Virus record (IMG/VR): IMGVR_UViG_3300032116_000001
Coordinates: 124,001-188,000 of that record
Reading direction: 5' to 3' (one strand)
DNA: 64,000 nucleotides
Source: a virus
The notes beneath the pieces are model-generated. The model searched no databases, was not told the DNA's origin, and saw only the letters and a list, made by a program, of their open reading frames with translations. The position numbers were made by a program, and so were the translations under genes. Positions 1-22,029 of the stretch are shown here, one piece after another (position 1 is the stretch's first letter; each line of letters opens with the position of its first letter).

Positions 1-2
1 CA

Positions 3-722
3 ATGTTTACAAGACACAAAGATGTGCTTTTGCAAATGCTAGAAAGTTTCTTTTTAAACAAAAACAACAAACCATCTGATGAAAAAGTAAAAGAAATGAT
101 CGAAAACCTTGATGCTCATACACGAATGGCCTCTTATGAGTGGGCTAGACATCAGTTAATGGGCGGTGATGGTGAACCGAAAGCATGGGCAGATTTAAGC
201 CCTGATGAACTCAAGGCCATTGCTGTGAAGGCCTGGGAATCTTTATACGCTGATGGTTTTAGACTTTTTAGAATTCAAGAAATTAATGAACGTGGCGAGC
301 CACATAGAAAAGGCCCTGTTATGCCATTGAGCAGATGGGTTAAGCCCGATGTCTTTTTGCCAATTATGGAAGAGGAAGTAAACAATATACAACGCATGCA
401 GGCCAACAAAGCGGCAGTTAAAAAGGGTTATAGCCCCATTGCACAACGAAGCCGACTTGACCCCAGTATTAATCTTCAGAATATTGGTCAAAAAAGGCGT
501 GAGATTTTGGACATTGCTAGAAATAATCAGGAAGTTCAGCAAAGCGATGTGCCTAAAACCTTTATCGAAGACAACTCTGTTGAGGATTCTAAAGATGCGT
601 TGCAGTCACATGCAAGTGTGCTAGATAGAATGCTTCTCAAAATTAGTTCCATGGAGCAATCTGGTGATTACAAAAATGCAGACATTGAAATGTCAAGGCT
701 AGAATCTATTTTAAGAGGATAA
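3..722 (+). CDS. Hypothetical helical protein, possibly 5'-partial
   Basis: The reading frame is open from the first bases of the window, so the ATG at 3 may be internal and the true start may lie upstream. The visible 239 residues are charged and mostly helical, with no domain I recognise. The C-terminus (about residues 200-239) has a pattern of short helices, ending in 'SGDYKNADIEMSRLESIL', that resembles helix pairs in other proteins of this window (22863-23516, 27406-27837, 41974-42324). It ends 5 bases before the DUF192 gene, so the two are probably co-transcribed. Its position upstream of the portal gene suggests a head-module or DNA-packaging role, but that rests on context only. Confidence 0.7.
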   Translation: MFTRHKDVLLQMLESFFLNKNNKPSDEKVKEMIENLDAHTRMASYEWARHQLMGGDGEPKAWADLSPDELKAIAVKAWESLYADGFRLFRIQEINERGEPHRKGPVMPLSRWVKPDVFLPIMEEEVNNIQRMQANKAAVKKGYSPIAQRSRLDPSINLQNIGQKRREILDIARNNQEVQQSDVPKTFIEDNSVEDSKDALQSHASVLDRMLLKISSMEQSGDYKNADIEMSRLESILRG

Positions 723-727
723 AAATC

Positions 728-1222
728 ATGACAGAGGGCACAAAATTTAGAATAAGATTTGTTGCTGACAATGATGAAAAAAGAACCAAGGGGCTCATGC
801 ATGCAGAGCCCCTTGAAGATGATGAAGTTGTTCTTTTTATATTCCCTCATCCAGATAGATATGGTTTTTGGAATAAGAATGTTTCTTTTGGATTAAGTCT
901 GGCATTTTGTGACGCCAATGGTAAAATTGTACATTTTTCAGACATGAAGCCTAATGACCCAACAAAAGTTGGACCAGAAAACGATAATGTAATGTTTGTG
1001 GTTGAGGCTAAAGAAGGGGCTTTTTCAAAGATCGGCGCGAAGAAAGGTGATCTAATCAATTACTCTAATAATTTACTCACTGTGCACAAGACATCATCAA
1101 GGCATGCTCAAAATAATGAAAAAAATAATTTTCAAAAAAATGGCATTAAAAAAACAGGTATAGACATTAACAAGTTGGAAGTTAATCTTTTAGCAGGGTC
1201 TCTTAAGGAGGACTATAAATAA
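728..1222 (+). CDS. DUF192 family protein
   Basis: A 164-residue protein. Residues about 5-110 match the DUF192 pattern: 'KGLMHAEPLEDDE', then an aromatic 'FWNKNVSFGLSLAFCD' strand block, then 'GKIVHFSDM' and a late 'VVEAKEGAFSKIGAKKGD' segment. In cellular DUF192 proteins the domain is a small beta-barrel of unknown biochemical role, often secreted. No signal peptide is visible here, so a cytoplasmic or virion location is more likely. The last 50 residues are a polar extension outside the domain. It follows the upstream gene by 5 bases and its stop is next to the downstream start, consistent with one transcript. Domain assignment is fairly sure; function is unknown. Confidence 0.75.
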   Translation: MTEGTKFRIRFVADNDEKRTKGLMHAEPLEDDEVVLFIFPHPDRYGFWNKNVSFGLSLAFCDANGKIVHFSDMKPNDPTKVGPENDNVMFVVEAKEGAFSKIGAKKGDLINYSNNLLTVHKTSSRHAQNNEKNNFQKNGIKKTGIDINKLEVNLLAGSLKEDYK

Positions 1223-1223
1223 T

Positions 1224-2213
1224 ATGGCAGATCGAATTTTCCCCACACAAATCCAAGGCGATGGCCTTGATTCGGAAAAAGTTTTCACTGGTATCAACTG
1301 GGACGATTTTGGTTCACGTCTTGCGCAAGTTCGCGAAGCCGAAGGTACCGAAATGTCTCCTGAAGTGAGAGAATATCTTGATTCACTCAAAAACGATGAA
1401 TCTGATTTTGCTTACGAAGATGATGTAACAGCTGAAAACGAAAGCTCCAATGTCACGACCGCAAAGCGTGAACTTCCCGAAGCACTGGTAGAGCACCAAT
1501 TTAAGTCCAAGGACGAAGACGAAAATGACGAGCAAGAAGAGTCTAAAATTGTAAGAGGCAAAGAGGCTTCTGCTCAAAACAGAAGAGTAGTCTTCTCTAG
1601 CGCCAAGCAGCTGACTGCCGAGGCTATTGAAGAGGCTAAGGCCAAGGGTGATCAGGGGCTGGTTAATGCAATTTTGGCTGCCAGAAATGATCGAAGAACC
1701 GCTCTTGCGGCCAAGATCGCGGAAGCCGCCAAAGAGCAGGTAGACAAGAATGTTCGCATTGCTGAGCGAAATGCTTATCGTATGTCGATTGTGAATTCTG
1801 TTGAAGAAACCTCTAAAAAAATTACAGAAGCTGCGGCAAGTAACAACACCAAGGTTGCCTCTGACAATGATGGTTTTGTGAAAATTTCTGACCTCAAGGG
1901 GCAAGAAAGACAGGCATTTATTAAGAAGTGCGCCAGCCAGGGCTTCCCCGAGGAATATGTTTCTGCAATGCTTGGTGAAACACTGCAGGCAAATGCTGAT
2001 TTTTCTGCCGAGGCCGACAACATTAGACAAGTTATGTCAGCTGATCTTGACAAAAATATCAAGAAATCTGCCGTAGAGGGAATGGTCAAGGTTTCCTCAC
2101 TTGACAAGGCTGAATATGATCGACTCAAGAGATATTGGAAAGAAGAGCTTGGCTATGGTGATGAAGAATGGATTGATGATCTTTTCTCATCAAAATATGA
2201 TAGCAAAAAGTAA
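1224..2213 (+). CDS. Hypothetical Ala/Glu/Lys-rich helical protein
   Basis: The start is well supported: an AAGGAGGA Shine-Dalgarno sequence lies at about 1205-1212 with the ATG at 1224. The 329 residues are acidic in the first third (a DEDENDEQEES run near residue 100) and then strongly helical, with Ala/Glu/Lys patterns suggesting coiled coils at about residues 130-210. I recognise no domain. Composition and position before the portal gene would suit a head-interior or scaffolding-like protein, but this is inference. It is followed by an intergenic perfect hairpin. Confidence 0.75.
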   Translation: MADRIFPTQIQGDGLDSEKVFTGINWDDFGSRLAQVREAEGTEMSPEVREYLDSLKNDESDFAYEDDVTAENESSNVTTAKRELPEALVEHQFKSKDEDENDEQEESKIVRGKEASAQNRRVVFSSAKQLTAEAIEEAKAKGDQGLVNAILAARNDRRTALAAKIAEAAKEQVDKNVRIAERNAYRMSIVNSVEETSKKITEAAASNNTKVASDNDGFVKISDLKGQERQAFIKKCASQGFPEEYVSAMLGETLQANADFSAEADNIRQVMSADLDKNIKKSAVEGMVKVSSLDKAEYDRLKRYWKEELGYGDEEWIDDLFSSKYDSKK

Positions 2214-2226
2214 CCGCCAATAAATA

Positions 2227-2264
2227 TTTTCTTCCCTCTTTATTATAAGAAAGAGGGAAGAAAA
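2227..2264 (+). terminator. Perfect 14-bp hairpin between genes
   Basis: The arms at 2227-2240 and 2251-2264 are exact reverse complements (TTTTCTTCCCTCTT and its complement) around a 10-base loop. The right arm ends in AAAA rather than a T-run, so on the plus strand it is not a textbook intrinsic terminator. It may act as an attenuator or RNA-processing or stability element in front of the gene at 2278. Confidence 0.5.
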
Positions 2265-2277
2265 GGTAAAAAACAAC

Positions 2278-2496
2278 ATGAGTGAAATTCGACGATTAAG
2301 TGAAGACAGCGCTGAACATTATATTTCTTTCTTAGAAAATAATGGTTTGGGTAACATAGGCAATAAAGCAAAAATGATTTTGCCAACTGATACAAAACAG
2401 TCGAACGTGGCAGGAGATGGCGTAGGCCTTCCTGTAATTCATAGCAATTTTATTTCGCTTACTAATCTTGTTAAGAAAACAGATGAAAGTGAGTAA
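2278..2496 (+). CDS. Small hypothetical protein (72 aa)
   Basis: A 72-residue protein beginning 'MSEIRRLSEDSAEHY' and ending in a polar tail. No domain is recognised. It sits after the 2227-2264 hairpin in the same direction as its neighbours. Upstream is a purine-rich 'AAGGTAAAAAAC' stretch that recurs almost unchanged before the next gene at 2522, which suggests a shared ribosome-binding context. Codon use is like its neighbours and I take it as a real small gene. Confidence 0.6.
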   Translation: MSEIRRLSEDSAEHYISFLENNGLGNIGNKAKMILPTDTKQSNVAGDGVGLPVIHSNFISLTNLVKKTDESE

Positions 2497-2521
2497 ATAT
2501 CAATCATTAAGGTAAAAAAAC

Positions 2522-3382
2522 ATGAGCAAATTTCTTCGTAAAGTTTCTGATACAGAAAAGCTGCCTTCATCTGTGCAGCAGGCGTTTATTGGTGCGTCCT
2601 CAAATCAGGACGACCCATATGCACATTTGCGCATGGCCTCAAGAGACAATCAACTTAGTATAGCTAAGCAGTCTATGGGATATGATGAAGATGATGCTGA
2701 CATCGATGACCGATCCTGGGAGAGAGTTCAGGGCGCAAGCATTTACGAAGATAGACGCGCATCTAATATGACAGAAAGAATGAATAATCTTTCAATAGAA
2801 GATTTTTCTCCGCACGCCGTAAGGCGCTCGGATTATGGTATAGATGCAGGCGAGTCTTACAGAGAGACAACAAGCTCTCTTCAGGCATATACCCCTGAAG
2901 ATTATATGGCAGCTATGCTTAGGGGGGCTAGCATTTGGGACCCTGATATGGAAGTTATTGCTGATGCATTCCATAACAGTCAAGAAACTCAATCAGAACA
3001 GGTTATAGCCGAAGCTAAAATTCGCAGGGAAGCAAGACAAAACAGGCATCAGCAATGGGAAGAAGAAACCTCAAGTCATTTAGATTCTATTCGCCCATCA
3101 CGTGTTCTGTCGGCTCGCGCCGCACCTATATTACGAACAGCTGCTGAGAACGAAGCTGCAGGAAACTTTGGAATGATTGATTTTGATTCATTAGACAATC
3201 ATGAAGCACAACGGCTTGCCATGCAGGAAGAAAAACGTAATAGTCGGCTTGCCTTAAAACGCAATGGGATCAAGGATCGCGACGAAAGACATAATGACTG
3301 GCAAGAGCATGTTCAGACTCATGCAAGCACTATTCAAGATATTTATAATTATCAAAAGTACAACTTAAGCAGTGAGGATTAA
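2522..3382 (+). CDS. Hypothetical polar helical protein
   Basis: A 286-residue protein, rich in Asp, Glu, Arg and Ser and low in hydrophobic residues, so it is likely extended or helical rather than a globular enzyme. No domain is recognised. The AAGGTAAAAAAAC sequence immediately before the ATG is the same ribosome-binding context seen at 2278. The gene ends 5 bases before the next start. Probably a virion or assembly component by context; function unknown. Confidence 0.7.
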   Translation: MSKFLRKVSDTEKLPSSVQQAFIGASSNQDDPYAHLRMASRDNQLSIAKQSMGYDEDDADIDDRSWERVQGASIYEDRRASNMTERMNNLSIEDFSPHAVRRSDYGIDAGESYRETTSSLQAYTPEDYMAAMLRGASIWDPDMEVIADAFHNSQETQSEQVIAEAKIRREARQNRHQQWEEETSSHLDSIRPSRVLSARAAPILRTAAENEAAGNFGMIDFDSLDNHEAQRLAMQEEKRNSRLALKRNGIKDRDERHNDWQEHVQTHASTIQDIYNYQKYNLSSED

Positions 3383-3387
3383 TTTTT

Positions 3388-4374
3388 ATGAAAGGGCTTC
3401 GAACCGCGCAAGAGTTTGGTGGTGGGTTGGCCTCTAATCCCGCAAACGGAATAGCTAATATCCCACTCAATTCAACAGAGGATTCATCTGGTGTTAAGCC
3501 AGATGAATTACTTTCTATTTTGTCAAAGTTTATAAATTCTGATAGCGCAAGTGCTGTTCAATTTAAAGCAAAATTTGAAGATATTTTGCTTCGGTTAACT
3601 AGGCCAGATATGATAGATGCAATCCAAAAAATCATAAAAGCTATTGATATGGCTCAAGACCCTAAAAAAAGAACAAAAGACCCAAATACAGGCAAGTTTG
3701 ACCCAACAGCACAGGAACTTGCGCAAAAACTTTCCGACAAGGTGAAAATGATGGAAAAATCAAGCAGTAATCAAAATTCAAATGTTCTCAAATTTAATTT
3801 ACGAGAAGCCCAAGCCAAAAAGCCAAAGAAAAAAACAAGAGGCAACCCATTTAGGGTTTTAATGGGTAAAGTTGGCAAATTGCTTGACCATGGACTTGAA
3901 AAAAGTGAAATCAGAAGATATCTTGTTAAGCTGGGTATGTGGAATGAAGAAACAATTGAAAGAGCTATTGACATTGTTAGAGATTACAATAAAAAGAAAA
4001 GACGCGACGATGCCGATGGAAACAAAAAGGAATCTCAAATGTCTTCTGAATTAATGAGATTAGCAGAATCTAAGTTGGCATCAATGACTGATGAAGAATT
4101 TGATAATTTTTTAAATTCCAGAATTGCAGCCAAGGTTTTAGATAATTCAATCTATGATATTCCTGCTGATTTTTCAAAAAGATCAACAACGGAGTTAATG
4201 GCAAGGGCAACGTGGTTAATGTCGCTAATGAATTATAGTAAAGACATGCCACAAGGAGACGGCAAAAAACCTGCTGACACCAAGGGGGCGTCGGCAGAGC
4301 TGAAGTCAATTAAAAAGGCTCTGGAAGATCGTGGTTTTAATGCAGATGACTTGTCTGAAATGGGAATTAAGTAA
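3388..4374 (+). CDS. Hypothetical helical protein with basic central segment
   Basis: A 328-residue protein. Residues about 30-100 form a helical domain ('KFEDILLRLTRPDMIDAIQ'). A lysine-rich linker at about 133-150 leads to a compact helical segment ('NPFRVLMGKVGKLLDHG', then 'IRRYLVKLGMWNEETIERA') that looks conserved-domain-like but that I cannot name. The C-terminal 100 residues are again helical. The basic centre would suit nucleic-acid binding or a scaffold-partner contact, but this is inference. It lies 5 bases downstream of the preceding gene, in the head-module operon. Confidence 0.7.
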   Translation: MKGLRTAQEFGGGLASNPANGIANIPLNSTEDSSGVKPDELLSILSKFINSDSASAVQFKAKFEDILLRLTRPDMIDAIQKIIKAIDMAQDPKKRTKDPNTGKFDPTAQELAQKLSDKVKMMEKSSSNQNSNVLKFNLREAQAKKPKKKTRGNPFRVLMGKVGKLLDHGLEKSEIRRYLVKLGMWNEETIERAIDIVRDYNKKKRRDDADGNKKESQMSSELMRLAESKLASMTDEEFDNFLNSRIAAKVLDNSIYDIPADFSKRSTTELMARATWLMSLMNYSKDMPQGDGKKPADTKGASAELKSIKKALEDRGFNADDLSEMGIK

Positions 4375-4397
4375 TTCGATTAAAGCGAATTGATTGG

Positions 4398-5957
4398 GTG
4401 AAAAAAATGTGTGAACATGTAAAAGAAGAAGAAACAAAATTTGAAGGCAAGCATGATCTTCAGATGGGTGGTGGGGGCTTGATTGAAATGATATTAAGCA
4501 CCATGGAGCAAATTAGCGAAGCTGTTAAATCAGCAGTTAAGGAAAATTCACACAATAAAGAATCTCCCATGGACTTAATCGAAGATTCAGACCTTGATGA
4601 TTCTGATCCCGTTGTTCAAGAGTTCTTTAATGACGGCGGGTGTAAAGGTGTATTAAAAATTATAAGATTAAACAAGCCCGAAGTTGCTCTTGAAAAGCTG
4701 TCTGAAATTTCAGTCAAGTTGCAAAAAGTTCGAATGGCAAATCGCCGTTTAATTTTAAGACAAATTTTTGCAGCAGCACAAATTGCGCGGGGAATTGATA
4801 ACGAAGCTGTAAATCTGGAGAGAGTCGCTCACAAAATGACTTCTCATAGCAAGGGATTTTATCAAGCAGAGTCTATTATGGCTATTGACAGCCTTGTTGC
4901 TGATACTTACAATCAGAGCGAGAAGCGCGTATTGGCTTCGGCCAGGGATTTAATTCTTTCTGGTGAATTCGAGAAAGGCGCACTGAAGCTAAAAGAAATT
5001 TATGCCTCAGCATTACCGCAATCACAAAATATCAGAACGGCTTACACAACGCTAAGAACCCAAGGTGGAGAGCCCTATTTGTTATGTCCAAAAGGCATTC
5101 ACGTAATGGGACATGCGGTGCCTATGGAAGTGAGCAAATGTAGAGAAAATTGCATTGATAGCAAGGTTGATGAAAGCGGGGCAGTATCATGCCAATATCA
5201 ATCTTGGCTCAAGCATGCTGATACTCACGAAAAAGCCATGGCAAGACTTGAAGTACATCGTCACCCAGATAATGCAGAAAACGCATTGGCGTATGATGAA
5301 GGTTCAAGAGGGCTACCATATAAGCTTAGTGATCTGCCTGTAGAGAAAAGATTTGAAGACAGCAATCAGGGATCAAATAAAGTGCGTGACAAAAAAGTAA
5401 GCGACGAAAGTATTGAGGCCAGACTGGAAAAAGCAAAATCTGGGCAGCCAGGACAGCGCCCAGGGCATTCTTCATCTATTTCAGATATGAACATAAAGGC
5501 ATCAAGTTTTAATAATAAAAGACATGCAATTGCTCAGAATGTGGGCATTAAATCAATGGAACAACAGCTGCGATCAGAATCCTCTGCAGAGCCTGCAAAT
5601 ATTACAATTGAAAAGCAGCTAGAAACAACAAATGGGTATAATGGCCACAGGGGCGAAATGGAACAAAGTTATGCCCACCAACTGGCCAATCAAGAATCCA
5701 ATTCAGAATCAATAACTGAACAGCTTTTGGACCAAGAAGAAATTGGTGGGGTGCGGGTCACAGAAAGACTTGCGTCAGATGTCGCAGAAATCAATCCAGA
5801 GTCTAAAGATACTTTAGGTAGCCAAATTTCTGAAGATCACACAAATGAACAATTGGATGATTTCACAATTGAAGAACTTCTTGCTGATGAAAGACGTGGG
5901 TTGTCGGAAGACGAAATCGATATGCTTTTAGAGCAATTGCTTGAAGAAACAAGATAG
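4398..5957 (+). CDS. Head-module protein with Cys cluster and repeated short motifs
   Basis: A 519-residue protein. The start is either GTG at 4398 or ATG at 4407 (MCEHVKEEE); neither has a strong Shine-Dalgarno site. Residues about 70-210 are helical. Around 225-265 there is a Cys/His-containing stretch ('LLCPKGIHVMGHAVPMEV', then three more Cys), possibly a metal site. The C-terminal third is polar and carries a degenerate repeat of the form [S/T]-[I/L/M]-E-x-x-L at least five times (ESIEARLEKAK, SMEQQLRSE, TIEKQLETT, SITEQLLDQ, TIEELLADE). Related motifs occur in the next gene and in the protease polyprotein. The role is unknown; an assembly or scaffold-partner role is inferred from the motif sharing. 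Confidence 0.7.
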   Translation: MKKMCEHVKEEETKFEGKHDLQMGGGGLIEMILSTMEQISEAVKSAVKENSHNKESPMDLIEDSDLDDSDPVVQEFFNDGGCKGVLKIIRLNKPEVALEKLSEISVKLQKVRMANRRLILRQIFAAAQIARGIDNEAVNLERVAHKMTSHSKGFYQAESIMAIDSLVADTYNQSEKRVLASARDLILSGEFEKGALKLKEIYASALPQSQNIRTAYTTLRTQGGEPYLLCPKGIHVMGHAVPMEVSKCRENCIDSKVDESGAVSCQYQSWLKHADTHEKAMARLEVHRHPDNAENALAYDEGSRGLPYKLSDLPVEKRFEDSNQGSNKVRDKKVSDESIEARLEKAKSGQPGQRPGHSSSISDMNIKASSFNNKRHAIAQNVGIKSMEQQLRSESSAEPANITIEKQLETTNGYNGHRGEMEQSYAHQLANQESNSESITEQLLDQEEIGGVRVTERLASDVAEINPESKDTLGSQISEDHTNEQLDDFTIEELLADERRGLSEDEIDMLLEQLLEETR

Positions 5958-5976
5958 TGCAAAAGGTGTGTGCAAG

Positions 5977-6417
5977 GTGTGGTATCGACTTTCGCAAAAA
6001 ACTTTAGGTATTGGCGGCGGGGCATTAAAGTCCTCGCCGTCAAATGATTCTGTATTGCCAGCAGAACAACATGCCAAAATGTGGGATGTATTGGTTAATC
6101 AAACAGATCATATCGGAAACAGAAAGGGCGAGCCAAATGAAACCACTGGTGATCAAGGTGCCATAAACGAGGGGCAAGCAACTCAAGGCACAGAAATGAG
6201 AAGAGTTTCGCCTTATCATAGCAATCCTGAACACACAACTCTTGAAGAGCAACTTGAAACCGCAAGGCAACAAAACGTAAATAACGATCCGATAGCAATG
6301 ACGCAAAACAATTTCGGAACTGGAGAAATGCTAATAAGAGGAGTGCCCCAGTATAGTTCTGGCAAAGGGTGGGTAGGCTTTCAAGGAAATAACCCGTCTG
6401 CGATAACCCTGGTTTAA
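5977..6417 (+). CDS. Small head-module protein with N-terminal WYRLSQ motif
   Basis: I place the start at GTG 5977, giving 'VWYRLSQKTLG'. An AAAAGG ribosome-binding site sits about 10 bases upstream, and two other genes here start with nearly the same peptide (MWYRFSNR at 22293, MWYRFAQK at 59320). An upstream ATG at 5941 would overlap the previous gene and is less attractive. The 146 residues are polar and low-complexity, with a 'TTLEEQLETAR' motif near residue 86 that matches 'TLEEQLSECR' in the protease polyprotein. No enzymatic domain is seen. It lies directly upstream of the portal gene. Confidence 0.65.
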   Translation: MWYRLSQKTLGIGGGALKSSPSNDSVLPAEQHAKMWDVLVNQTDHIGNRKGEPNETTGDQGAINEGQATQGTEMRRVSPYHSNPEHTTLEEQLETARQQNVNNDPIAMTQNNFGTGEMLIRGVPQYSSGKGWVGFQGNNPSAITLV

Positions 6418-6438
6418 AGGTTTTTTTCTTTTATGCAG

Positions 6439-6502
6439 ACAATATCTTAAGGAAAGAGTCTTAAGATATTGTATAATTGTGCAATATGTCTTTAAAGACA
6501 TA
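6439..6502 (+). promoter_or_regulatory. Two adjacent palindromes upstream of the portal gene
   Basis: The first is a 13-bp perfect stem (6439-6451 with 6460-6472, ACAATATCTTAAG) around an 8-base loop. The second, 6485-6502, is an 18-bp perfect palindrome (TATGTCTTTAAAGACATA). They fill the gap between the preceding stop and the portal ribosome-binding site. The first could be a weak terminator or attenuator. The second is symmetric enough to be a protein operator. Confidence 0.5.
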
Positions 6503-6517
6503 AGTGAGGTTTTGCTT

Positions 6518-8941
6518 TTGGCCAATCAAGAATCAATAATGGAAGCCCCAACATTAGCCAGTGTTATGAGGGTTGCCGCGCAAACTGTGTCTGGCGAGAG
6601 AGTGATCGGTGCAACAACAAAAAGAGACACAGGCCAGCAACATGTTGCGTCAAGAATTACGTCTGGGATCGGAGCCAGCGTACACAAAGGCGTGCGGGAA
6701 GCGCAGGTTTCACCCAACAGCATTACTACGGCACCCAACTTTTATAGCCCGTTTTTAACACCAAGGGCTTATCAAGTTCCAAACGCACGCAAAGAAGTGT
6801 ATCTTTGGGCAAACTGGTGGCGAAATAATGAACCAAAAGTTGCCGCGGCTATAAATTTTTACAAACTTTTTCCTTTTTCTGGATGGAAACTTGAATGTTC
6901 AAGTTCATATGTCAAAGACTATTTTGAGAAATTAATCCAAAAGCTTAATTTCCAAAAATGGCTTCCAGAAATCAGTGGCGTATATCATCTTTTTGGAGAC
7001 TGCTTTGTACTTGCAACTCTTGAGTGCGAACACTGTGAGGGAAGCATGATTGATAAAAACACGGGAGAAGCCTGCAGCCATGATGGGGCAACATGGGCCA
7101 GCCTGACTATTTTAAACCCCGACAGTATTCAGATTAGGCCTGGTATATCTGGTCAGGAAAATTCATATTTTTATCAACCAACCGAAAGAGACATTCGATT
7201 AATCAATGAACGTCAATCACAACAATTCTATCATCAAATACCAGATAATGTAAAGAGACTTATCAAAAAGGGAGAGCCATTCCTTCTTAATTCCATATGC
7301 ATAGAGCACTTTAAATTTGGCTCTAGCCCTTGGGAAGATTACGGAACGCCAATGATTAGGTCGCTCTTTCCGACACTGGCTTATAAAGATAAATTAAGAA
7401 ATGCTCAATGGCTTATTGCTGAACGACATATTCTTCCCGTTAAAGTTGTAAAAGTTGGATCAGACAACAGGCCAGCAAGCCAATCTGATATTGATAGCGT
7501 GCAAGAAGAATTGGCCGCTGTTGCAAATGACCCCAATTTGACTTTAGTCACTCATAATGCATTCGATTTTGATTATGTGGGAGCATCAGGAAAAGTTCTG
7601 CAGCTTACAAATGAATTTGAGCTTATAGATCAAGAGATTCTTGATGGCGTAATGCTAAATAAGGCACTATTAAATGGTGAAGGCCCAACATATGGAAATG
7701 CCCAGGTTGGCCTCTTGGCAATGAAACAGCGCTTAGAAACATTCCGAAATGAAGTTGCAAGATGGATTGAAGAAAAATTATTTAAACCAGTCGCAGAATG
7801 GAACGGCTTTGTCATTGAGGGCGAAAGAGGACAAGATGAATTAGTTTATCCCAAAATTGTTTTTAGTGATTTAGAGCTTAAGGACAAAACTGGGATTTTG
7901 CAAATGTTTGTCACTGCTAATAGCAATGGTGTTATTTCAAATCAGTCATTAATTGAAGAATTTGGCCTTAATCCAGACCAAGAAATTGAAAGACTCCGTG
8001 AGGAGCAGGGCGCTAACTTTGTGCAAAACCCAGCAATAGGAAACACAGACCTTGGTAATGGTTTTGCAGGCGGCATGGGTGGAGGATTCGGCGGGATGGC
8101 CCCATCAATGCCTGCGCCAGGCGGAATGCCAGCGGCTCCTGGTATTGATGGTATGGGTGGAATGCCGCCTATTGGAGCAAGAGATTACCGAGAAAATTAT
8201 CGCCTGGCATCTGGTATAATGAACGACATTTATCGTGAAAAAATTGGCATTCATACTGCAGAAATTCAGACGAGAACAGCATCAAAAACAATTAAGTCTC
8301 AGGCTCATTACGAATTTTTAAGCACAATAAAACCTGTTTCTGGTCGGGGATTGGCTGGGGAACTTCCAGAGGAATATGATGGCTTTGGCAATGTCCTAGA
8401 GCCACAGTTGTTAGGAGGACCATTCTGTTTTCCTCTTAATTCATCGGCAATTCATGAGCTAAGAAACATAATCGCAGAAGCCTCTAATGATCCTGCAGGC
8501 AAAATTGCTTTAGCCTCGGCTGAAGAAGCAAAAAATAGAATAACCATTGGCAAGAAGGGTGGCAGAAATGAAGAGAAACAAGTTAATTTGTTCACAAGCA
8601 TTGAGAAGAAACTTTACTATCTTTTGACATCTTTAAACTTACCTTTTGCGATTTATGCTCAATATAGTATGGGGCAAACAAGTGATTACACCCTGGATGC
8701 CGCAATACCATCGTTGAGGCTAGGCTTTGAGGCAGATGGTGAAATTTGGCACAATAGTCCAGATAAAATTGCAAGAGATAAAAGAAGAGATATGGAGCTA
8801 GCAGCAAATGGCTGGACAATTCTTCGCTTTACAGACAAAGAGTTAAATGATCGCCAAAACGAAGTTGCCCAGGTAATTTTACAAGCTATCCGAAAAGTTG
8901 CAGCACCAGGTCAAGATAATCAAGGGAATATCATTCTCTAG
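6518..8941 (+). CDS. Portal protein fused to a DUF559/Vsr-like endonuclease domain
   Basis: The portal protein forms the dodecameric DNA channel at the capsid vertex. Residues about 60-500 read as a phage portal: 'VYLWANWWRNNEPKVAAA' near the start, a long stem region, and 'LNGEGPTYGNAQVGL' in the wing/crown part. A Gly/Met/Pro-rich linker (about 510-555) follows. The last ~115 residues (about 690-805) form a restriction-like nuclease domain: 'LDAAIPSLRLGFEADGEIWH' then 'WTILRFTDKEL', with candidate catalytic residues D727, E738, D740 and H745 all present. I choose the TTG at 6518 because AAGTGAGGT lies 7 bases upstream; GTG 6479 falls within the palindrome region, and ATG 6539 has no ribosome-binding site. 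The nuclease fold is well supported; its role in the particle is unknown. Confidence 0.85.
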   Translation: MANQESIMEAPTLASVMRVAAQTVSGERVIGATTKRDTGQQHVASRITSGIGASVHKGVREAQVSPNSITTAPNFYSPFLTPRAYQVPNARKEVYLWANWWRNNEPKVAAAINFYKLFPFSGWKLECSSSYVKDYFEKLIQKLNFQKWLPEISGVYHLFGDCFVLATLECEHCEGSMIDKNTGEACSHDGATWASLTILNPDSIQIRPGISGQENSYFYQPTERDIRLINERQSQQFYHQIPDNVKRLIKKGEPFLLNSICIEHFKFGSSPWEDYGTPMIRSLFPTLAYKDKLRNAQWLIAERHILPVKVVKVGSDNRPASQSDIDSVQEELAAVANDPNLTLVTHNAFDFDYVGASGKVLQLTNEFELIDQEILDGVMLNKALLNGEGPTYGNAQVGLLAMKQRLETFRNEVARWIEEKLFKPVAEWNGFVIEGERGQDELVYPKIVFSDLELKDKTGILQMFVTANSNGVISNQSLIEEFGLNPDQEIERLREEQGANFVQNPAIGNTDLGNGFAGGMGGGFGGMAPSMPAPGGMPAAPGIDGMGGMPPIGARDYRENYRLASGIMNDIYREKIGIHTAEIQTRTASKTIKSQAHYEFLSTIKPVSGRGLAGELPEEYDGFGNVLEPQLLGGPFCFPLNSSAIHELRNIIAEASNDPAGKIALASAEEAKNRITIGKKGGRNEEKQVNLFTSIEKKLYYLLTSLNLPFAIYAQYSMGQTSDYTLDAAIPSLRLGFEADGEIWHNSPDKIARDKRRDMELAANGWTILRFTDKELNDRQNEVAQVILQAIRKVAAPGQDNQGNIIL

Positions 8942-8962
8942 TGTTGAGTAATTTTTAGCATA

Positions 8963-9016
8963 TTTTCTGTTATTTTTTTGAAAATGTTACAGGTGCAAGC
9001 CTGAAAATAACAGAAA
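8963..9016 (+). repeat. Long inverted repeat in the leader of the protease gene
   Basis: A TTTCTGTTATTTT arm near 8964-8976 is complementary to AAAATAACAGAAA at about 9004-9016, with a small CAGG...CCTG hairpin between them. No T-run follows, so a simple terminator is unlikely. The 145-base gap (8942-9086) otherwise shows only an AGGAGA ribosome-binding site at 9071-9076. It is probably a structured 5' leader or operator. Confidence 0.5.
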
Positions 9017-9089
9017 GGCATATAAAGCGTTGGTTTTGAAAGTTTTCAAAAAATCAACATAACTAATTTTAGGAGAAAGAATCACCTTG

Positions 9090-12000
9090 ATGGAGCGGCG
9101 AGCCAAGTGCGGCATCATAAATATTCATAGCTTTCTCAACGAGGAAGATCGCAATGCGGCTCGTGATCACATGATGCGAACTGCTTCTGTTCAATTAAGA
9201 GAAGCAGCTAAAATTGGTTTGCAGTCTTTATATGCTGATCCAGAAGAAGTTTTAAAGAAATACAAAGACTTTGACATAGTTAAAGCAATGCAGGCAAGAA
9301 AAGGTGCCAAGCTTCTGTGGGTCAGGGCCAGGGCGATTGACGCTGATACAGTAAATGCCAATGGCGATTATTTCTCAAGGGCCGAGTTACTTAAGGAAGT
9401 TGAAGTTAAGGGCGAAAAGATACCTGCGTATAAAACATTTGAAGGTGTCCCGATTTATACAAATCACAAAAACGATGACATCGAGCAGGCAAAGGGTATG
9501 GTCGTTTATGCAGAATGGGACGAGGAACAAAATTGTGTATTCTGTACATTCTTCGTTGACGAAGAAGCGTACCCTGATATAGCAAGAAATATTCGAACTG
9601 GTGTAATCCATGATGTTTCTATGGGCTGTCAGGTGCAAAGTGGCGAGTGCTCTAAATGCGGCAATATAGCCACTATTGAAAAAGAATATTGTGATTGTCT
9701 CAAGAAATACAAAGGCAAAAAACACCCTGTAACAGGTGAAAAAATTTATGAAAAAAACTTTGGATTAAAGTTTATTGAATTAAGTTGTGTTGGTGACGGG
9801 GCATTTGAAACCTGCGAAATAGAAGAGCTTTATGACGTTGATGAAATTCTTGATGCTGCTATGAGCACAGAAAGACGTGCAAATTCTATTTATTCAAGCA
9901 TAGTTCTTGCCAGCACATTAATGCCAGACAACACTGTTGATAAGCATTATTTTGAGGAATCTTTAAGAGAAATTTCTGCCGCTGCTCAATCTGCAGTACG
10001 ATTAGCCCAATCTGCAGGCACCCTGGTTGGTGGGCAGTTGATGGCAGGCGAGGGCGCGGACCAAAATGCAACAGTTTCGGCAGTATTAAACGCTCTGGGA
10101 ATTGATCCAAGGTCAGGGTTAAATATTCTTGATTTACTTAATCTTGCCTTAAACTTTTTAGAAGTTGCGGTTATGAATCTTTTTGCAAGAAAAGATAATG
10201 TTGACTTGACTCATGTTGGAAAAATTACAAAAAGCATGGCCGATCTTCAAAACACCATGCAAGACATGATTGATGATGGCGTAGATACTGGTGTAAGAAA
10301 TCAACAGCCAATTAATCAAGGTCAAATTGCAAATCAGCCACCAATGGCAGCTCCACAAATGCCCCAGGGTGGTCAACAAATTAATCCTGGCGCTGGGCAG
10401 CAACCCATGAATTGGAATAACTTGGGAGATGTTGGAAGATCAATAAGCCCAATGTCTATGCCTGGGGGAATTGGTGGTGGCGTTGTGCTTTCATCTTCTG
10501 ATCCACAAATGATAATGTGGGCGTCAAAGGATGGAAGTCGCGAAGTTTACGCCAGCGTAAAAGCTTCGCAAAACAATCAATCTAGTAGATTGACAAACAA
10601 TATAGTAGAATTTGGACAAGCTCTTGTTGGCTTTAAAAATTCGCTTGGCATAGACCAAAAATCAATTGCCAATTTTAACAAAAACAATCAATTCGTGCGT
10701 GCTGCCCAAGGGCGCAACACAAATCAAAAGACCAACGCGCCTGTTACTGCAGGGGCGGGAGAATACCAAACTATGGATCATTTCGCAAAAATCGCTCAAG
10801 AGCAGCGCAAGAAATACGCTTTTACCGCCCATGTAGATGTTACTATGGAGGATGCCAGCGGCAACCGCGTTGTTCTTTCAACTGACGGAAATATTTCTGG
10901 ATTTGTCAAGGGTGTTAAAGCCCAGTGGGAGCCAGAACTTACTGAATCTCAAATCGCTCGCATGGAAAATGGCGAGGGCACAAGAGTTGCATCTGAGTTG
11001 CTTGCAAGTTTTGCAAAGCAAGTTAAAACAGCTGGATGGAAGCCTTATACCGAAACAGATGTCAAGGAAAACGAACTTGAGCCACATCGCAACGGGACAA
11101 AGATTGAAACAAGAGAAGAATCTTTGGAAAAAATGAGGTCCAACAACAAGGGTGAAAAAACCATGCAAGAAGCACTTGGTGGTGATTATTACTCCAATAG
11201 AAGAGACGCCGACGACGATGTTAAAGAAAACATGCTTGATGAAAGCGCAGGACTTTACGGCAGGGCCGTAAATGAGTCATTTAATGAAGTAAAGGATCGC
11301 TTGCTTGAAGATGCACGGCGTGGACATCCCGAAAATACACTTGAAGAACAACTTTCTGAGTGCAGAGAAAATCATGGAACCGCAGAAGTTGAAGTGGTAA
11401 TGACAATGGTGAAAGAAGCAATGGCCAAGGCCGTTGTTGCTTCAAGAGTTTTGCCAGAAGAAATTGTTTCCGTGGCTGAAACGCTGGCTTCGCGCAATGA
11501 TCTGGAAGAACTCGTTGCTCTTGCAAGCTTGGGTATGAATACCAGAAAGGCTTATGCTAATCGAAGAGCATTCCATAAAATTTCTGCTGTATTAATGGCA
11601 CCTGATGCTGCTCTGTTGCATTCGCTTGGTGAGATTGTGAGCCGTGAAATAACTGCATCTGATGTAAGTGAGGCAATTCGAGTTGCTGCATCTATGAAAG
11701 ACGTGGCAACTACTGCTGTCGCAAACATGGTTGAAGCCATGAGAGACGGCGAAATGGTTGAGGCAGCGCCTGTAAACATTAAGGTTAGCAGAGAAGAAAG
11801 ACTCAAAACAGCTCTTGCCTCTTCTGGGCACGAATCATTTAATAAAGAGCACTTAAAGGCTGTTATTTCAGCAATGGTGATGGCAAGTGAAGAAACACAA
11901 GCTACACCCGAAGAGGTTGTTGATTCACTCAAGGGACTTAATTTGGCCTCAAAAATCAACGAAGCCCGAACAGCTTCGGCGACGGATGGAAGATTGACTG

Positions 12001-13367
12001 CAAGAGCAAGAAAACAATTCTGGGGTAATGAAAGATTCGCATCTAAGTCAACGGTCTCTGATGCAACTGTTGGATGGATTGCTGATTACGCAACCAACTT
12101 TGATTACAGTACGCAGGCGGTGGCTCAGGCTGTGGAAAAACTTACCAATGATCCCAGGGTGGCAACGCACTTGATTACTAAGGCCATTGATGCCAAGCTC
12201 CAAGGCGAAAGAATGGCAGGTGTTACGGTTACAGAAGAAAAGTCAGAAATCATTCGCTTTGTGTGCAGGGCAGAAGACCTCGGAGGTATTGACCCCAAGG
12301 ACGAAGCTTTTGAAGACACTTTTAGACAAAAGGCTATTGAAATTCTAACCGCTCAAGGATTTACAGTTGATCCAGGAACATTTAGCTTTACTGATCTTTC
12401 AGTAACAGAAAACGGGGACATTACTGCGTCGGTTCAAACCAGAGTCACAAAGACTTTTAAAGCAGACGCCGAATTACCTGCTCAGCCCCTGGAAAATATG
12501 GACACAATGTCCGTGGCCCCAGAAGTTATTGAGCCAACAGTAGTAATGTCTGAAGCAGCAAGAGAAGCCAGACTTGCAAGGCGGCAGCAAATTTTAAGCA
12601 AGATTGCACAAGCCGCCCCTGGCATGATGCCACCAGCTCAAGAGATGGGCACGCCAGGCATGGATGCTTCGGGTATGGGAATGGCAGGCGCTGAAGGTCT
12701 TGGCGTTGCCGCCTTGTCGGTGCCGACGGCAGCGGGTGACAATCCTGTTGAAGAACCCGCTGATACTGATGCAATGCCAGAACCTGGCAATCCAAAGCCA
12801 ATTGGTACTATCTGCCCCATATGTGGCAGCGATGATGTTGATCTTGCTAACAGCGAGGGTGAGTGCAACTCGTGTGGCACGCGCTATAAAGTTATGCAAA
12901 GTATTGAAATCATTAGCATTGGTGGTGGTGAGCCCGTTAATAATGATTCGCCTGAGGCAGAAATGGATGGCATGGCGTCACCCGATACCATGGGTCTTGG
13001 AGAGGACACTGGTCTGGGCGCTGCCACTGCGCCCGCTCCTATGGGTTCACCCGACATGAACAACCCAGGAGGCATGCCGCCTGCTCAAGGAATGGGAGCC
13101 ATGGCCAGCGCAGGCGCAGCTTTGTATCGAATTGCTGCCACAGTTGACTCTGATGTGTATCTCAAAACAACTATGCCAAACTTTAGCCGAACTGCTGAAA
13201 AGCAATTGCCCATCGGCATGGTATGTCCAAAGTGCGGCAGCAGAGAGGCTCAAAAAGTCAAGAACTCTACGTTCTGTTATGATTGTGGAAACTATGCTAT
13301 TAGCAGCGTGAAGCCAAATGATTCTGATCCCACAAAGATCGATGTTTCAATAACCTGGTTGGCATAA
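9090..13367 (+). CDS. Capsid maturation protease polyprotein with zinc ribbons
   Basis: Residues about 70-260 match the phage prohead protease family that processes scaffold and capsid proteins: 'VNANGDYFSRAELLK', 'GVPIYTNHKNDD' and 'IRTGVIHDVSMGCQV', giving a His127/Ser178 catalytic pair. A CxxC-x(n)-CxC cluster (CSKCGN, EYCDC) follows directly, as in relatives I know from large phages. The rest is unusual: Pro/Gln-rich linkers (about 405-480), long helical stretches, a TLEEQL motif near 751, and two C-terminal zinc ribbons (CPICGS at 1243, CPKCGS at 1380). At about 1,426 residues it is several times the usual protease length, so it may be a protease-scaffold polyprotein. The start is TTG 9087 or ATG 9090, with AGGAGA upstream. 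Confidence 0.8.
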   Translation: MERRAKCGIINIHSFLNEEDRNAARDHMMRTASVQLREAAKIGLQSLYADPEEVLKKYKDFDIVKAMQARKGAKLLWVRARAIDADTVNANGDYFSRAELLKEVEVKGEKIPAYKTFEGVPIYTNHKNDDIEQAKGMVVYAEWDEEQNCVFCTFFVDEEAYPDIARNIRTGVIHDVSMGCQVQSGECSKCGNIATIEKEYCDCLKKYKGKKHPVTGEKIYEKNFGLKFIELSCVGDGAFETCEIEELYDVDEILDAAMSTERRANSIYSSIVLASTLMPDNTVDKHYFEESLREISAAAQSAVRLAQSAGTLVGGQLMAGEGADQNATVSAVLNALGIDPRSGLNILDLLNLALNFLEVAVMNLFARKDNVDLTHVGKITKSMADLQNTMQDMIDDGVDTGVRNQQPINQGQIANQPPMAAPQMPQGGQQINPGAGQQPMNWNNLGDVGRSISPMSMPGGIGGGVVLSSSDPQMIMWASKDGSREVYASVKASQNNQSSRLTNNIVEFGQALVGFKNSLGIDQKSIANFNKNNQFVRAAQGRNTNQKTNAPVTAGAGEYQTMDHFAKIAQEQRKKYAFTAHVDVTMEDASGNRVVLSTDGNISGFVKGVKAQWEPELTESQIARMENGEGTRVASELLASFAKQVKTAGWKPYTETDVKENELEPHRNGTKIETREESLEKMRSNNKGEKTMQEALGGDYYSNRRDADDDVKENMLDESAGLYGRAVNESFNEVKDRLLEDARRGHPENTLEEQLSECRENHGTAEVEVVMTMVKEAMAKAVVASRVLPEEIVSVAETLASRNDLEELVALASLGMNTRKAYANRRAFHKISAVLMAPDAALLHSLGEIVSREITASDVSEAIRVAASMKDVATTAVANMVEAMRDGEMVEAAPVNIKVSREERLKTALASSGHESFNKEHLKAVISAMVMASEETQATPEEVVDSLKGLNLASKINEARTASATDGRLTARARKQFWGNERFASKSTVSDATVGWIADYATNFDYSTQAVAQAVEKLTNDPRVATHLITKAIDAKLQGERMAGVTVTEEKSEIIRFVCRAEDLGGIDPKDEAFEDTFRQKAIEILTAQGFTVDPGTFSFTDLSVTENGDITASVQTRVTKTFKADAELPAQPLENMDTMSVAPEVIEPTVVMSEAAREARLARRQQILSKIAQAAPGMMPPAQEMGTPGMDASGMGMAGAEGLGVAALSVPTAAGDNPVEEPADTDAMPEPGNPKPIGTICPICGSDDVDLANSEGECNSCGTRYKVMQSIEIISIGGGEPVNNDSPEAEMDGMASPDTMGLGEDTGLGAATAPAPMGSPDMNNPGGMPPAQGMGAMASAGAALYRIAATVDSDVYLKTTMPNFSRTAEKQLPIGMVCPKCGSREAQKVKNSTFCYDCGNYAISSVKPNDSDPTKIDVSITWLA

Positions 13368-13382
13368 TTAAGCAAGAGTAGG

Positions 13383-13436
13383 AAACAAAACGAGACATGA
13401 TTGGTTAAATTCTAATCATGTCTCGTTTTGTTTTTT
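13383..13436 (+). terminator. Strong intrinsic terminator after the protease gene
   Basis: A perfect stem of about 20 bp (arms 13383-13402 and 13414-13433) encloses an 11-base loop and runs straight into TTTTTT. This is a textbook rho-independent terminator on the plus strand, 15 bases after the protease stop codon. Confidence 0.85.
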
Positions 13437-13475
13437 CATTTATTATTCCTTTTTATTGAATAATAAATGAAAAAA
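13431..13475 (+). promoter_or_regulatory. Second overlapping hairpin sharing the terminator T-run
   Basis: An 18-bp perfect stem (13431-13448 with 13458-13475, loop 13449-13457) uses the T-run of the previous terminator as its left arm. The two hairpins compete for bases 13431-13433, a layout reminiscent of attenuators. On the minus strand the right arm also gives a T-run. Confidence 0.5.
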
Positions 13476-13568
13476 AATATTTTTTTGCAGGTGTTAAAGC
13501 TATTTTTAGTGAAGTCTTTAAGCAGACACTCACTTGTTAATGCAAAACATAATCAAGTGAGGAGCCTA

Positions 13569-15305
13569 ATGGCTCTTAAACAGAGGGAAGCAGCAATTAT
13601 GAATAAGAATAACGAAACTCCCCTCCAGACTGATAGACTGAAACAAGTTCTTAGAATCGCAGAAATCAAAGCTACGGATAAAGAAGATATGGAAAATTGT
13701 GTAAACGACATGCAAAGAAGTGCTTCGCTTGATGAAAGTGAAGCACGCATTGTCGCCAAGGCCGTTAGGGCAAAGCATCTTCCTAATATTCTCCGTGAAG
13801 CGGGTGCTGAAGAAATGATTAAAGAGGATTTGTTAACGCCAGTTGGAGTGGCCTCGGAAACTGCTGACTTCGCTAAAGATAAAAATGACGACGATCACGA
13901 TGAAGATAATTCAGAATTTGTTGAAAACGAAGATTTTGATTTATTGAATTCTGAAGAAGATTTAAACGACGATATGGGCGAAGCAAACGACGAAACAAAC
14001 ATCGCCACTTTTGAAATCGACGTTCCCGCAGACAAGGTTGAGGAAGCGCAGAAAGCTGTGCAAGAAGCTCTTGACAAGATTTTTAGCGGAGACGCATCTG
14101 ACGATGAGTTAGATGAAGAAGACCATGACACAGCACTTGAAGGCCTTGCCGACGAAGACGTTGAGGAAGTGGATGATCTTGAAGGTGACATGGACATTGA
14201 TATGTCCACTGACGTAGAGGAGGCCGATGATGCCCCCTTGCAGCACACAGCAAGCACGGTGAATAAAATTATGACCCCAGAAGAAAGAACCAAGCGCCAA
14301 GCAGAGCGCGAAGCTATTCTCCAGCGCGTGGTCGTTGCTGAGGAAGCATCCAAGCCAAAAGACAGAGGTCTTGGCAAGGATACAACTGAAGGCACTTATG
14401 GTGGACAAAAGGCAAAGCCTTTCCAGCATAATGATGCCGCGCAATACCACGGCGAAGAAGCCTTCCCAACAATGTCCCTTAAGGGCGGTGAAGGTAATTC
14501 CCAGCGCGGAGACAATCCTAACTATGCCGATCAACCAATCCCGACTATGAATCCCGAAAACCTTCAGTTGAAGGGTGCCGTGGATGCGGTGAAGCTGGAC
14601 GGTCAGCCTGACGGAACTATCGAATATGTAATTGATTTCAATCATCTTGATGATGTTCCATCTGCGGAGCCTGAACGTGGCACCGCGTTTGAAATTCCAA
14701 CGCAAATGGAAAATCTTCCTCGCAAGACAACCGTTGCTTCTCAAAATGACACTGAGGAAAGACTGGCTGAAGTTGAAGATGTTGTTTACAATTACCTCGT
14801 TGAGGCTGGTGTAGACGGCGAAGAAGTTGGTAAAATGACAGTTGCCGAAGGTGTGAATCTTCTTATGAAGATTGCATCTGAAAAGAGTAAGGACACCGAG
14901 GCAAACGACCTTAACGTTGAAATCAATGCAGAAGATGCAAAAGATGAGCGCAAGGCCGCGATTCAAGAATCACGGATCAAAACTGCTTACTCTTGCGCAT
15001 TTAAGCTTGCTTTGAACAATGTCCTCGCACAAAATGAAGTTGATGGATACGCTGAAACTATGCTGAACGACAGGTTACCTGTTGACAGCATGATCAGACA
15101 AACAACGCTTCTGATGCGCTCTGCTAACAGTAGCGCTCAACGTGTCGCTCAGGCAGCCGCTGAGAACTTTGGCACTGCTCGCTCGGCTTCAAGCCAAGCC
15201 GTTTCGTCATCCCCTGCACTTTCTGGTGATTTTAACACCAATAGTGCTTCGACAGATATACAAGAGGCTCTTAGAGGTGTGTTTACCATGCCCCGTGAGA
15301 ACTAA
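13569..15305 (+). CDS. Acidic scaffold-like head protein
   Basis: I choose ATG 13569 (MALKQREA) because GAGGAG lies 5 bases upstream. A longer frame back to 13467 would begin inside the second hairpin and has no ribosome-binding site. The 578 residues include a very acidic segment (about residues 95-230, long runs of Asp and Glu), a polar middle with Gly/Gln/Asn, and a helical C-terminal domain (about 395-530). Acidic helical proteins encoded between the protease and capsid genes are typical of scaffolding or prohead-core proteins removed during maturation. No direct family match is recognised, so scaffold is inferred from composition and gene order. Downstream spacing to the decoration gene is 29 bases. 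Confidence 0.65.
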   Translation: MALKQREAAIMNKNNETPLQTDRLKQVLRIAEIKATDKEDMENCVNDMQRSASLDESEARIVAKAVRAKHLPNILREAGAEEMIKEDLLTPVGVASETADFAKDKNDDDHDEDNSEFVENEDFDLLNSEEDLNDDMGEANDETNIATFEIDVPADKVEEAQKAVQEALDKIFSGDASDDELDEEDHDTALEGLADEDVEEVDDLEGDMDIDMSTDVEEADDAPLQHTASTVNKIMTPEERTKRQAEREAILQRVVVAEEASKPKDRGLGKDTTEGTYGGQKAKPFQHNDAAQYHGEEAFPTMSLKGGEGNSQRGDNPNYADQPIPTMNPENLQLKGAVDAVKLDGQPDGTIEYVIDFNHLDDVPSAEPERGTAFEIPTQMENLPRKTTVASQNDTEERLAEVEDVVYNYLVEAGVDGEEVGKMTVAEGVNLLMKIASEKSKDTEANDLNVEINAEDAKDERKAAIQESRIKTAYSCAFKLALNNVLAQNEVDGYAETMLNDRLPVDSMIRQTTLLMRSANSSAQRVAQAAAENFGTARSASSQAVSSSPALSGDFNTNSASTDIQEALRGVFTMPREN

Positions 15306-15334
15306 TCTCTTCCATTTCAGGAGAAAATCAACAA

Positions 15335-15961: not shown

Positions 15962-15985
15962 GATAATAAGGAGATCAACAAATAA

Positions 15986-16840
15986 ATGAGCATGATCAAG
16001 AGAAATACAAACGAGCAGCGCGAAGCCATTATTGCAATGGCTATGGAAACCCCCGAGGGTAGAACTGCGCTTGCACAAGCGATGGTTGAGCCAATCAAAA
16101 CATCGTTGATGTACCAAGCCATCGGGCGAAAGCTTCTGATGGTTGACGAGCTGCCAAACGGCGCTCTGGCCCGATACGAGCGCGACGTAGCTGTTAAGAG
16201 CTACGTGATTCCGAAGCGTGGTTCCGTGCCCGACGCCCTCGTGGAAGCTGAAGAGCTGATCGTTCCTACGATTGAGCTTGCTGCCCACCCCACGATCAGA
16301 CTGAACGAAATCCGCGCCCGCCGATTCTACATCGTGGACCGCGCACAAGTTCGTGCCAAGGACTCGCTCCAGCGACAGGAAGACGTTGAAGTCTTTAAGG
16401 TCATCAACGCTGCAATCCCAACTGACCACAGCATCTCCGTTTCAGGTACCCTGCAGGCTGAAAACATCAACCTGGCCCTTACCCTGATCGAAGAGCACGA
16501 ACTGATCGGTGCCAAGATTGTTCTCGCTCCACAGCGATACAAGGACATTCGGGGCTGGGGCAAGGAAGTGTACGATGAGGCAACTCAGCGCGACATCCTG
16601 ATGACTGGTCTGTACGGCCACATCTACAGTGCTGACATTCACGTTAGCACCATGGTTCCTAAGAACGCGGTCTACGTGCTTGCACCTGCCCAGTTCGTTG
16701 GTGCCATGCCAGTGAAGCAAGACATCACTGTTCTGCCCGCAGACGATCCTAAGCGACTCCGCCTCGGCTGGGTGGTCTATGAAGAAATCGGCTTTGCTGT
16801 CATCAATGATTACGCTTTGAGCCGCGTGACTGTTGCTTAA
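15986..16840 (+). CDS. Probable major capsid protein
   Basis: A 284-residue protein whose length and pattern suit an HK97-fold capsid subunit: an N-terminal helix with 'TPEGRTALAQAMVEPI', a beta-rich E-loop-like stretch ('RYERDVAVKSYVIPK'), a helical spine ('LQRQEDVEVFKVINAAIP') and C-terminal strands with 'PAQFVGAMPVKQDITVLPA'. Similar 'YVLAPAQFVGAMPVKQD' endings are typical of capsid proteins in large phages. An AAGGAG site precedes the ATG. It has the most biased codon use in the window (mostly CTG, ATC, AAC, GTC), as expected for the most abundant virion protein. Gene order (portal, protease, scaffold, decoration, capsid) supports the call. A terminator follows immediately. Confidence 0.8.
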   Translation: MSMIKRNTNEQREAIIAMAMETPEGRTALAQAMVEPIKTSLMYQAIGRKLLMVDELPNGALARYERDVAVKSYVIPKRGSVPDALVEAEELIVPTIELAAHPTIRLNEIRARRFYIVDRAQVRAKDSLQRQEDVEVFKVINAAIPTDHSISVSGTLQAENINLALTLIEEHELIGAKIVLAPQRYKDIRGWGKEVYDEATQRDILMTGLYGHIYSADIHVSTMVPKNAVYVLAPAQFVGAMPVKQDITVLPADDPKRLRLGWVVYEEIGFAVINDYALSRVTVA

Positions 16841-21630: not shown

Positions 21631-22029
21631 TTAGTCCCAATCATAAGTTTCTTTTTCTGATTCCGTATATGAAATTCTCGTTAGAGCCTCACCGTACCGA
21701 TTGGGTCCTGGCAAAAACCTAACAGAAGCATATTCAACATATTTGTTGTTGTCGTCGGGTATTATTTCTGCTTTCACGAGTGCGTCAATGATCGGCTTGC
21801 AAACATTGTCAACGTCTTGTTGTTTTGACCATCCGCGGCCCCCAAGAACAAAAATTTCAATTCTAATTGGGAATGCCTCTGCGGGCGAAAGCTTTTCTTG
21901 AATTTCTGGAACTACTTTTTCCAACCATTGTCTGTATTTTTTTGATTTGGACATTCGACCGCGGGCAGTCGGCACATACATATTATTGGCCGAAAACGGG
22001 GGACCAATGCTACACGAAACATTTCGCAT
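21631..22029 (-). CDS. RusA-like Holliday-junction resolvase
   Basis: A 132-residue protein with the RusA pattern: an N-terminal strand plus 'PPFSANNMYVP', then 'DVDNVCKPIIDALVKAEIIPDD' with the metal-binding and catalytic Asp residues (D72, D74, D82 and the DD at 92-93) and K78 all in place. RusA enzymes are homodimers that cut four-way DNA junctions; in phages they resolve branched replicative DNA before packaging. Size matches the family. It is transcribed leftward and converges on the ART gene with no gap. It is the last gene of a four-gene minus-strand set. Confidence 0.9.
   Translation of the reverse strand: MRNVSCSIGPPFSANNMYVPTARGRMSKSKKYRQWLEKVVPEIQEKLSPAEAFPIRIEIFVLGGRGWSKQQDVDNVCKPIIDALVKAEIIPDDNNKYVEYASVRFLPGPNRYGEALTRISYTESEKETYDWD

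Follow-up and report, generated by a model that had tools for sequence, protein, structure and literature searches.

A Vsr-like nuclease domain fused to the portal protein throughout a lineage of jumbo phages

In the usual view, portals are DNA channels and fullness sensors, and a portal gene that continues in frame into a predicted nuclease raises the question of what a DNA-cutting domain would do there. Such a gene was found in the window analysed here, a 64,000-base stretch that spans positions 124001-188000 of a virus record 378,848 bases long. A preliminary description had placed one gene at 6518-8941, with a portal at the N-terminus and a nuclease at the C-terminus. The longest reading frame is a single + strand ORF that opens at GTG 6479 and is uninterrupted up to its stop at 8941; TTG 6518, which has a GAGG upstream, and ATG 6539 are equally plausible candidate starts. 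Residues are counted here from GTG 6479, which makes them 13 higher than in the preliminary description. We regard it as virtually certain that portal core, linker and DUF559/Vsr-like nuclease domain lie in one gene as described. The parts of the gene and its head-gene neighbours are as follows.

6479..8941, + strand: portal-nuclease fusion gene, 820 aa from GTG 6479, start possibly TTG 6518 or ATG 6539
6662..8029, + strand: portal core, aa 62-517 (phrog_16240, Portal_Mu, phage G portal, fold matches)
8030..8197, + strand: Gly/Met/Pro-rich flexible linker, aa 518-573 (low pLDDT, raised dN/dS)
8198..8458, + strand: moderately conserved intervening segment, aa 574-660 (column conservation)
8591..8896, + strand: DUF559/Vsr-like nuclease domain, aa 705-806 (Pfam, fold match, invariant residues)
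9087..13367, + strand: next gene, a 1426-aa protein with an N-terminal head maturation protease domain (phrog_18299, 9.8e-17, aa 87-242)
15986..16840, + strand: major head protein (phrog_2522, 6.7e-66)

The N-terminal part is a true tailed-phage portal by profile, fold and gene context. In profile searches, the core matches PHROG family phrog_16240 (1.6e-32) and, above its cut-off, Pfam Portal_Mu (1e-8), and its nearest named relative is the gp14 portal of Bacillus phage G, at 29.6% identity and an E-value of 4e-65. AlphaFold2 modelled the fusion protein with moderate confidence (mean pLDDT 61.7, with much of the core at 75-90). When this model was compared with the PDB, the best 50 matches listed were all portals or portal/neck complexes, the best with an E-value of 2.5e-9, and the portal core proposed ahead of the linker was thus borne out by profiles and by predicted fold. 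The gene sits among head and packaging genes, with the large terminase (TerL) 13.6 kb upstream and the protease and major head protein downstream. Several neighbours were noted in passing: a LAGLIDADG-type homing endonuclease gene immediately after the major head protein (window 17044-18378, + strand), a transposase-like gene (window 20287-21456, + strand; phrog_506, 1.7e-127), and a gene resembling the T4 RNA ligase / tail fiber attachment catalyst (window 42481-43698, - strand; phrog_562, 7.1e-32). In the related contig L038, the start of an intein lies in the head protease gene, at about 9000-9600.

The C-terminal domain matches DUF559 (PF04480) over aa 706-804 with 3.1e-9 and 37.1 bits, above the curated cut-off of 20.6. 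Modelled separately, it reached a pLDDT of 85.5, and this model matched the catalytic domain of the homing endonuclease I-Bth0305I (3r3p; 5.4e-6, TM 0.83 by target), the DUF559 protein NGO0050 (3hrl; 1.3e-4) and E. coli Vsr (1vsr; 4e-4), the first two of which were also found independently by sequence profiles. A C-terminal nuclease fold of the Vsr/DUF559 type, as first proposed, is therefore present. Against the Vsr family itself (TIGR00632) the domain scored 16.6-21 bits with a cut-off of 97.85, so it is Vsr-like and not a Vsr. Five residues, E709, D740, E751, D753 and H758, are invariant in 42/42 aligned full-length homologues and likewise across 23 diverse domains; the last four are the candidate catalytic residues named in the preliminary description as D727, E738, D740 and H745. 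Vsr has an Asp51-His69 pair (PMC11879112), to which D740 and H758 would correspond by a reading of the alignment rather than by computation. From fold and conservation we infer that the domain would cut DNA.

A Vsr-like fold might instead bind DNA, scaffold or protease and not cut. Non-cleaving folds of this kind exist, FASTKD4 being one (PMC11879112), and a nuclease inside the head would be hazardous to the phage's own genome. FASTKD4 itself, however, is without the histidine (PMC11879112), whereas here the acidic and histidine residues are invariant from identical portals down to distant intein-bearing ones, and binding alone needs no such invariance. We consider a domain that only binds to be improbable.

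Between portal and nuclease, the proposed Gly/Met/Pro linker was seen at aa 518-573, and in the model of the fusion protein pLDDT falls below 50 across aa 505-567. The median pairwise dN/dS was 0.034 for the portal core and 0.041 for the nuclease, with 0.233 for the linker (aa 518-590) and 0.157 for the middle segment, descriptive figures drawn from 368 non-independent pairs. By this measure the nuclease is under purifying selection close to the level of the portal core, and it appears to be selected as an enzyme. The intervening segment, aa 574-660, is missing from the short linkers of the distant relatives L208 and L209.

A check proposed at the outset was to look for the same fusion in other phage portals. 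A portal profile search collected 66 viral contigs with this portal, and in 58 of them portal and nuclease share one stop-free frame; 7 more break off at the contig end before reaching the nuclease. In the remaining contig (L123 = L038 = L203) the linker is interrupted by one TGA, beyond which the nuclease frame stays open; this TGA could be a sequencing error, a recent mutation or a natural split. The frame is thus unbroken in 58/59 contigs that reach the nuclease, and a frame error joining two separate genes is ruled out by one frame across dozens of contigs with that TGA as the sole exception. The fusion also occurs in more distant portals, some with inteins (L204, L208, L209, L268 and L276). 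Portal genes of L204, L208 and L209 carry one to three inteins each, at conserved positions.

The nuclease domain is absent from phage G and from seven further portals that share about 30% identity with the portal of the window. A portal-core tree, built by a quick method and with some long branches, separates the fused portals from the rest at a branch supported at 99, so that one change suffices, and places the phage G-like group, without nuclease, as their sister. Portal and nuclease distances correlate with r 0.90, as high in 0/2000 permutations, which indicates that the two halves were inherited together. No loss of the nuclease was seen inside the fused clade, and one scan of genome contigs found no relatives in bacterial genomes. 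The fusion is old and fixed across a whole phage lineage, and is not an accident of frame or assembly. A 1016-aa phage G-like portal ORF (L277:3695-6742) has a C-terminal part without a match to the nuclease.

This history bears on whether the domain is the relic of a homing endonuclease, an EDxHD-type nuclease that became fused to the portal and persists to further its own spread. Among solved structures the nearest is that of the homing endonuclease I-Bth0305I, and these phages often carry inteins and LAGLIDADG enzymes. EDxHD homing endonucleases are carried by an intron, an intein or a free-standing mobile gene, whereas this domain is the in-frame C-terminus of a portal, gained once, inherited vertically, carried by no intron or intein, never lost inside the clade, and under selection as strong as that on the portal. 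Each genome has one DUF559 copy above the cut-off, which also rules out a DUF559 family dispersed as mobile copies over the genome. We consider a selfish origin of this kind very improbable.

Two other leads were dropped. A match to a 'helicase' of Pseudomonas phage MR14 is not a related architecture, since its DUF559 ORF overlaps an intein in another frame; this 241-aa ORF with a DUF559-like end (L051:4869-5594), lying inside the intein of the annotated helicase, is possibly an out-of-frame homing endonuclease. A link between the lineage and published bS21 phages by way of ribosomal protein S21 was not upheld, the marker being present in only 2/14 records and absent from G000.

A nuclease on the portal could make up for one missing elsewhere, and this was evaluated for the terminase and for the resolvases. 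The terminase profiles PF03237 and phrog_2 missed TerL because of its divergence and its intein, which has a LAGLIDADG domain and sits in the Walker A motif (GRRSGK/S). With the Tunturi_5 terminase, TerL was located at record 114897-118121 (L058:4897-8121), upstream of the window. Its RNase H-type acidic triad is invariant in 80/80 homologues, which rules out the portal nuclease as a stand-in for a broken terminase nuclease. Searches found no confident endonuclease VII, and no RuvC in the fused genomes; RuvC is present in phage G (NC_023719.1, 257469-257819), whereas most fused-portal phages carry a RusA. The resolvase of the window is the following.

21631..22029, - strand: RusA-type Holliday junction resolvase (Pfam RusA 2e-7, above cut-off)

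RusA was found in G000 and in 5/6 fused genomes, in some of these below the cut-off, and despite the absence of RuvC it rules out the portal nuclease as a substitute for a missing Holliday junction resolvase. With the TerL triad kept and RusA present, the portal nuclease is an extra activity that replaces neither.

A second feature of the inter-domain region is a set of candidate cleavage sites. The pattern [RK][TVILM]A[SAQN] was first picked out by eye and occurs 31 times in the head region with 5.4 expected, compared with 58 and 46 in the rest of the genome. When every gapped three-residue pattern in the head-region proteins was counted, R.AS ranked first (14 seen, 2.4 expected; p 2.6e-7, with no correction for how many patterns were scanned), with R.AQ in third place. 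A related enrichment is seen in relatives, less marked in the most distant ones. Two such sites lie between the domains of the fusion protein.

8201..8212, + strand: candidate head-protease site RLAS, aa 575-578 (motif enriched in head proteins and between the domains)
8273..8284, + strand: candidate head-protease site RTAS, aa 599-602 (motif enriched in head proteins and between the domains)

Among the fused relatives, [RK]xA[SQA] occurs 40 times between portal and nuclease with 6.2 expected, and it does not occur in the linkers of L208, L209 and L276. We treat R-x-A-[S/Q/A] as a candidate prohead-protease motif, unlike the known AxE motif, and the adjoining 1426-aa head protease as the candidate enzyme for cutting the linker. 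In head-region proteins generally (window 1-16000; record 120000-141000) the motif is often found near residues 31-37, and the head region of phage G is also enriched in it (12 seen, 2.8 expected). With the sites lying between the domains and the protease gene next door, proteolytic release of the nuclease is plausible in the main clade. Phage SPN3US offers a precedent, its portal and ejected head proteins being processed by the prohead protease, at a motif (AXE) that differs from the candidate here (PMC10052503).

Release of this kind suggests the main rival to a role in packaging: the head protease would free a nuclease of about 22-25 kDa, which would remain in the head, enter the cell with the genome and attack host or competitor DNA, in the manner proposed for effectors fused to MuF. 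The enrichment of R.AS above all other patterns, the inter-domain sites, the adjoining protease gene and the processing in SPN3US are all consistent with such delivery, and head proteins that carry enzymes have been described, among them MuF toxins and portal-PBECR (PMC5576092, PMC5512222). The cleavage motif is itself only a candidate, however, and the distant fused portals L208, L209 and L276 have linkers without it. MuF-type and polymorphic effectors are moreover recognised by exchange of the C-terminal domain among close relatives, and here the same nuclease is found throughout, never exchanged for another domain. They also have an immunity gene alongside; the gene that directly follows the fusion encodes the head protease protein. 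We judge delivery after release to be unlikely, though less so than binding without cutting or a homing relic.

We favour processing of DNA at packaging, in which each portal subunit would carry an active nuclease that faces the capsid interior and processes phage DNA during packaging, and give this reading a probability of roughly 45%. The end of the core forms the crown in known portals and lies within the capsid, and a portal is as a rule a 12-mer. A restriction endonuclease (REase)-fold domain of the DUF559/Vsr/EDxHD-like type, flexibly tethered to the end of the core, would accordingly lie on the side of the procapsid interior, and about a dozen such domains would stand where DNA enters. 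There they may cut or trim the phage DNA as it is packaged, removing branches, flaps or damage that stalls the motor, or trimming ends after the terminase cut. Substrate, interior location and timing are the parts of this proposal that we infer. For packaging speak a domain that was gained once on the portal tree, that is conserved at the level of the portal, and that has never been swapped (branch support 99, r 0.90), which is how a core function would behave. Against it, TerL triad and RusA are both kept, with no processing step visibly missing; phage G, with a larger genome, packages without the domain; and the candidate protease sites suggest that the domain may be removed, possibly ahead of packaging.

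Comparable activities are known from T4. Endonuclease VII (gp49) is described as portal-bound and frees stalled branched DNA in packaging (PMC10893049, PMC9958956); it is likewise an endonuclease at the portal acting on DNA as it is packaged, but it is a separate protein of another fold held non-covalently, whereas here an REase-fold domain is within the portal chain and a separate RusA is present. The head completion nuclease gp4, TnsA-like and also of REase fold, has a DNase activity reportedly needed for packaging (PMC7824862), but it has its own gene, belongs to a different REase subfamily and lies outside the portal. By analogy, the portal nuclease would be a covalent counterpart of endonuclease VII or of gp4. 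I-Bth0305I, NGO0050 and Vsr share the fold of the catalytic domain and are stand-alone or intron-borne, with no portal. The closest named portals, gp14 of phage G and its sister-group relatives, share a Pro/Gly-rich C-terminal tail and have no nuclease domain.

The preliminary description had called a DNA-cutting extension of a portal unusual. This stands for an REase-fold nuclease fixed throughout a lineage, and has to be qualified for enzyme fusions as such: portals joined to a predicted RNase (PBECR), a 2H phosphoesterase and a pyrophosphatase are published (PMC5512222), as are enzymes on portal-associated MuF head proteins (PMC5576092). Enzyme domains on portals and head nucleases in packaging are thus already known, and what is unusual here is the kind of nuclease and its fixed, unswapped conservation. 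In the open-licence papers searched, no report of a portal fused to DUF559 or another REase-fold nuclease turned up, an absence that counts for little. Predicted viral proteins searched by fold gave DUF559, Vsr and homing endonuclease matches, none of them named as a portal and many unnamed.

With its active site intact across the lineage, the domain points to DNA cutting as a step in the assembly or use of the virus particle. We hold more tentatively, and with greater doubt than the packaging role, that this jumbo-phage lineage has a fixed endonuclease on every portal subunit and a channel that inspects and edits the entering DNA independently of terminase nuclease and resolvase. If the portal nuclease is what it seems to be, the packaging channel would be a DNA-processing enzyme, and the question becomes how the particle cuts only the proper DNA while holding its own genome. 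The fused lineage and the phage G relatives without the domain offer a natural comparison, and the nuclease may serve as a marker domain for a jumbo-phage group known here only from metagenomes.
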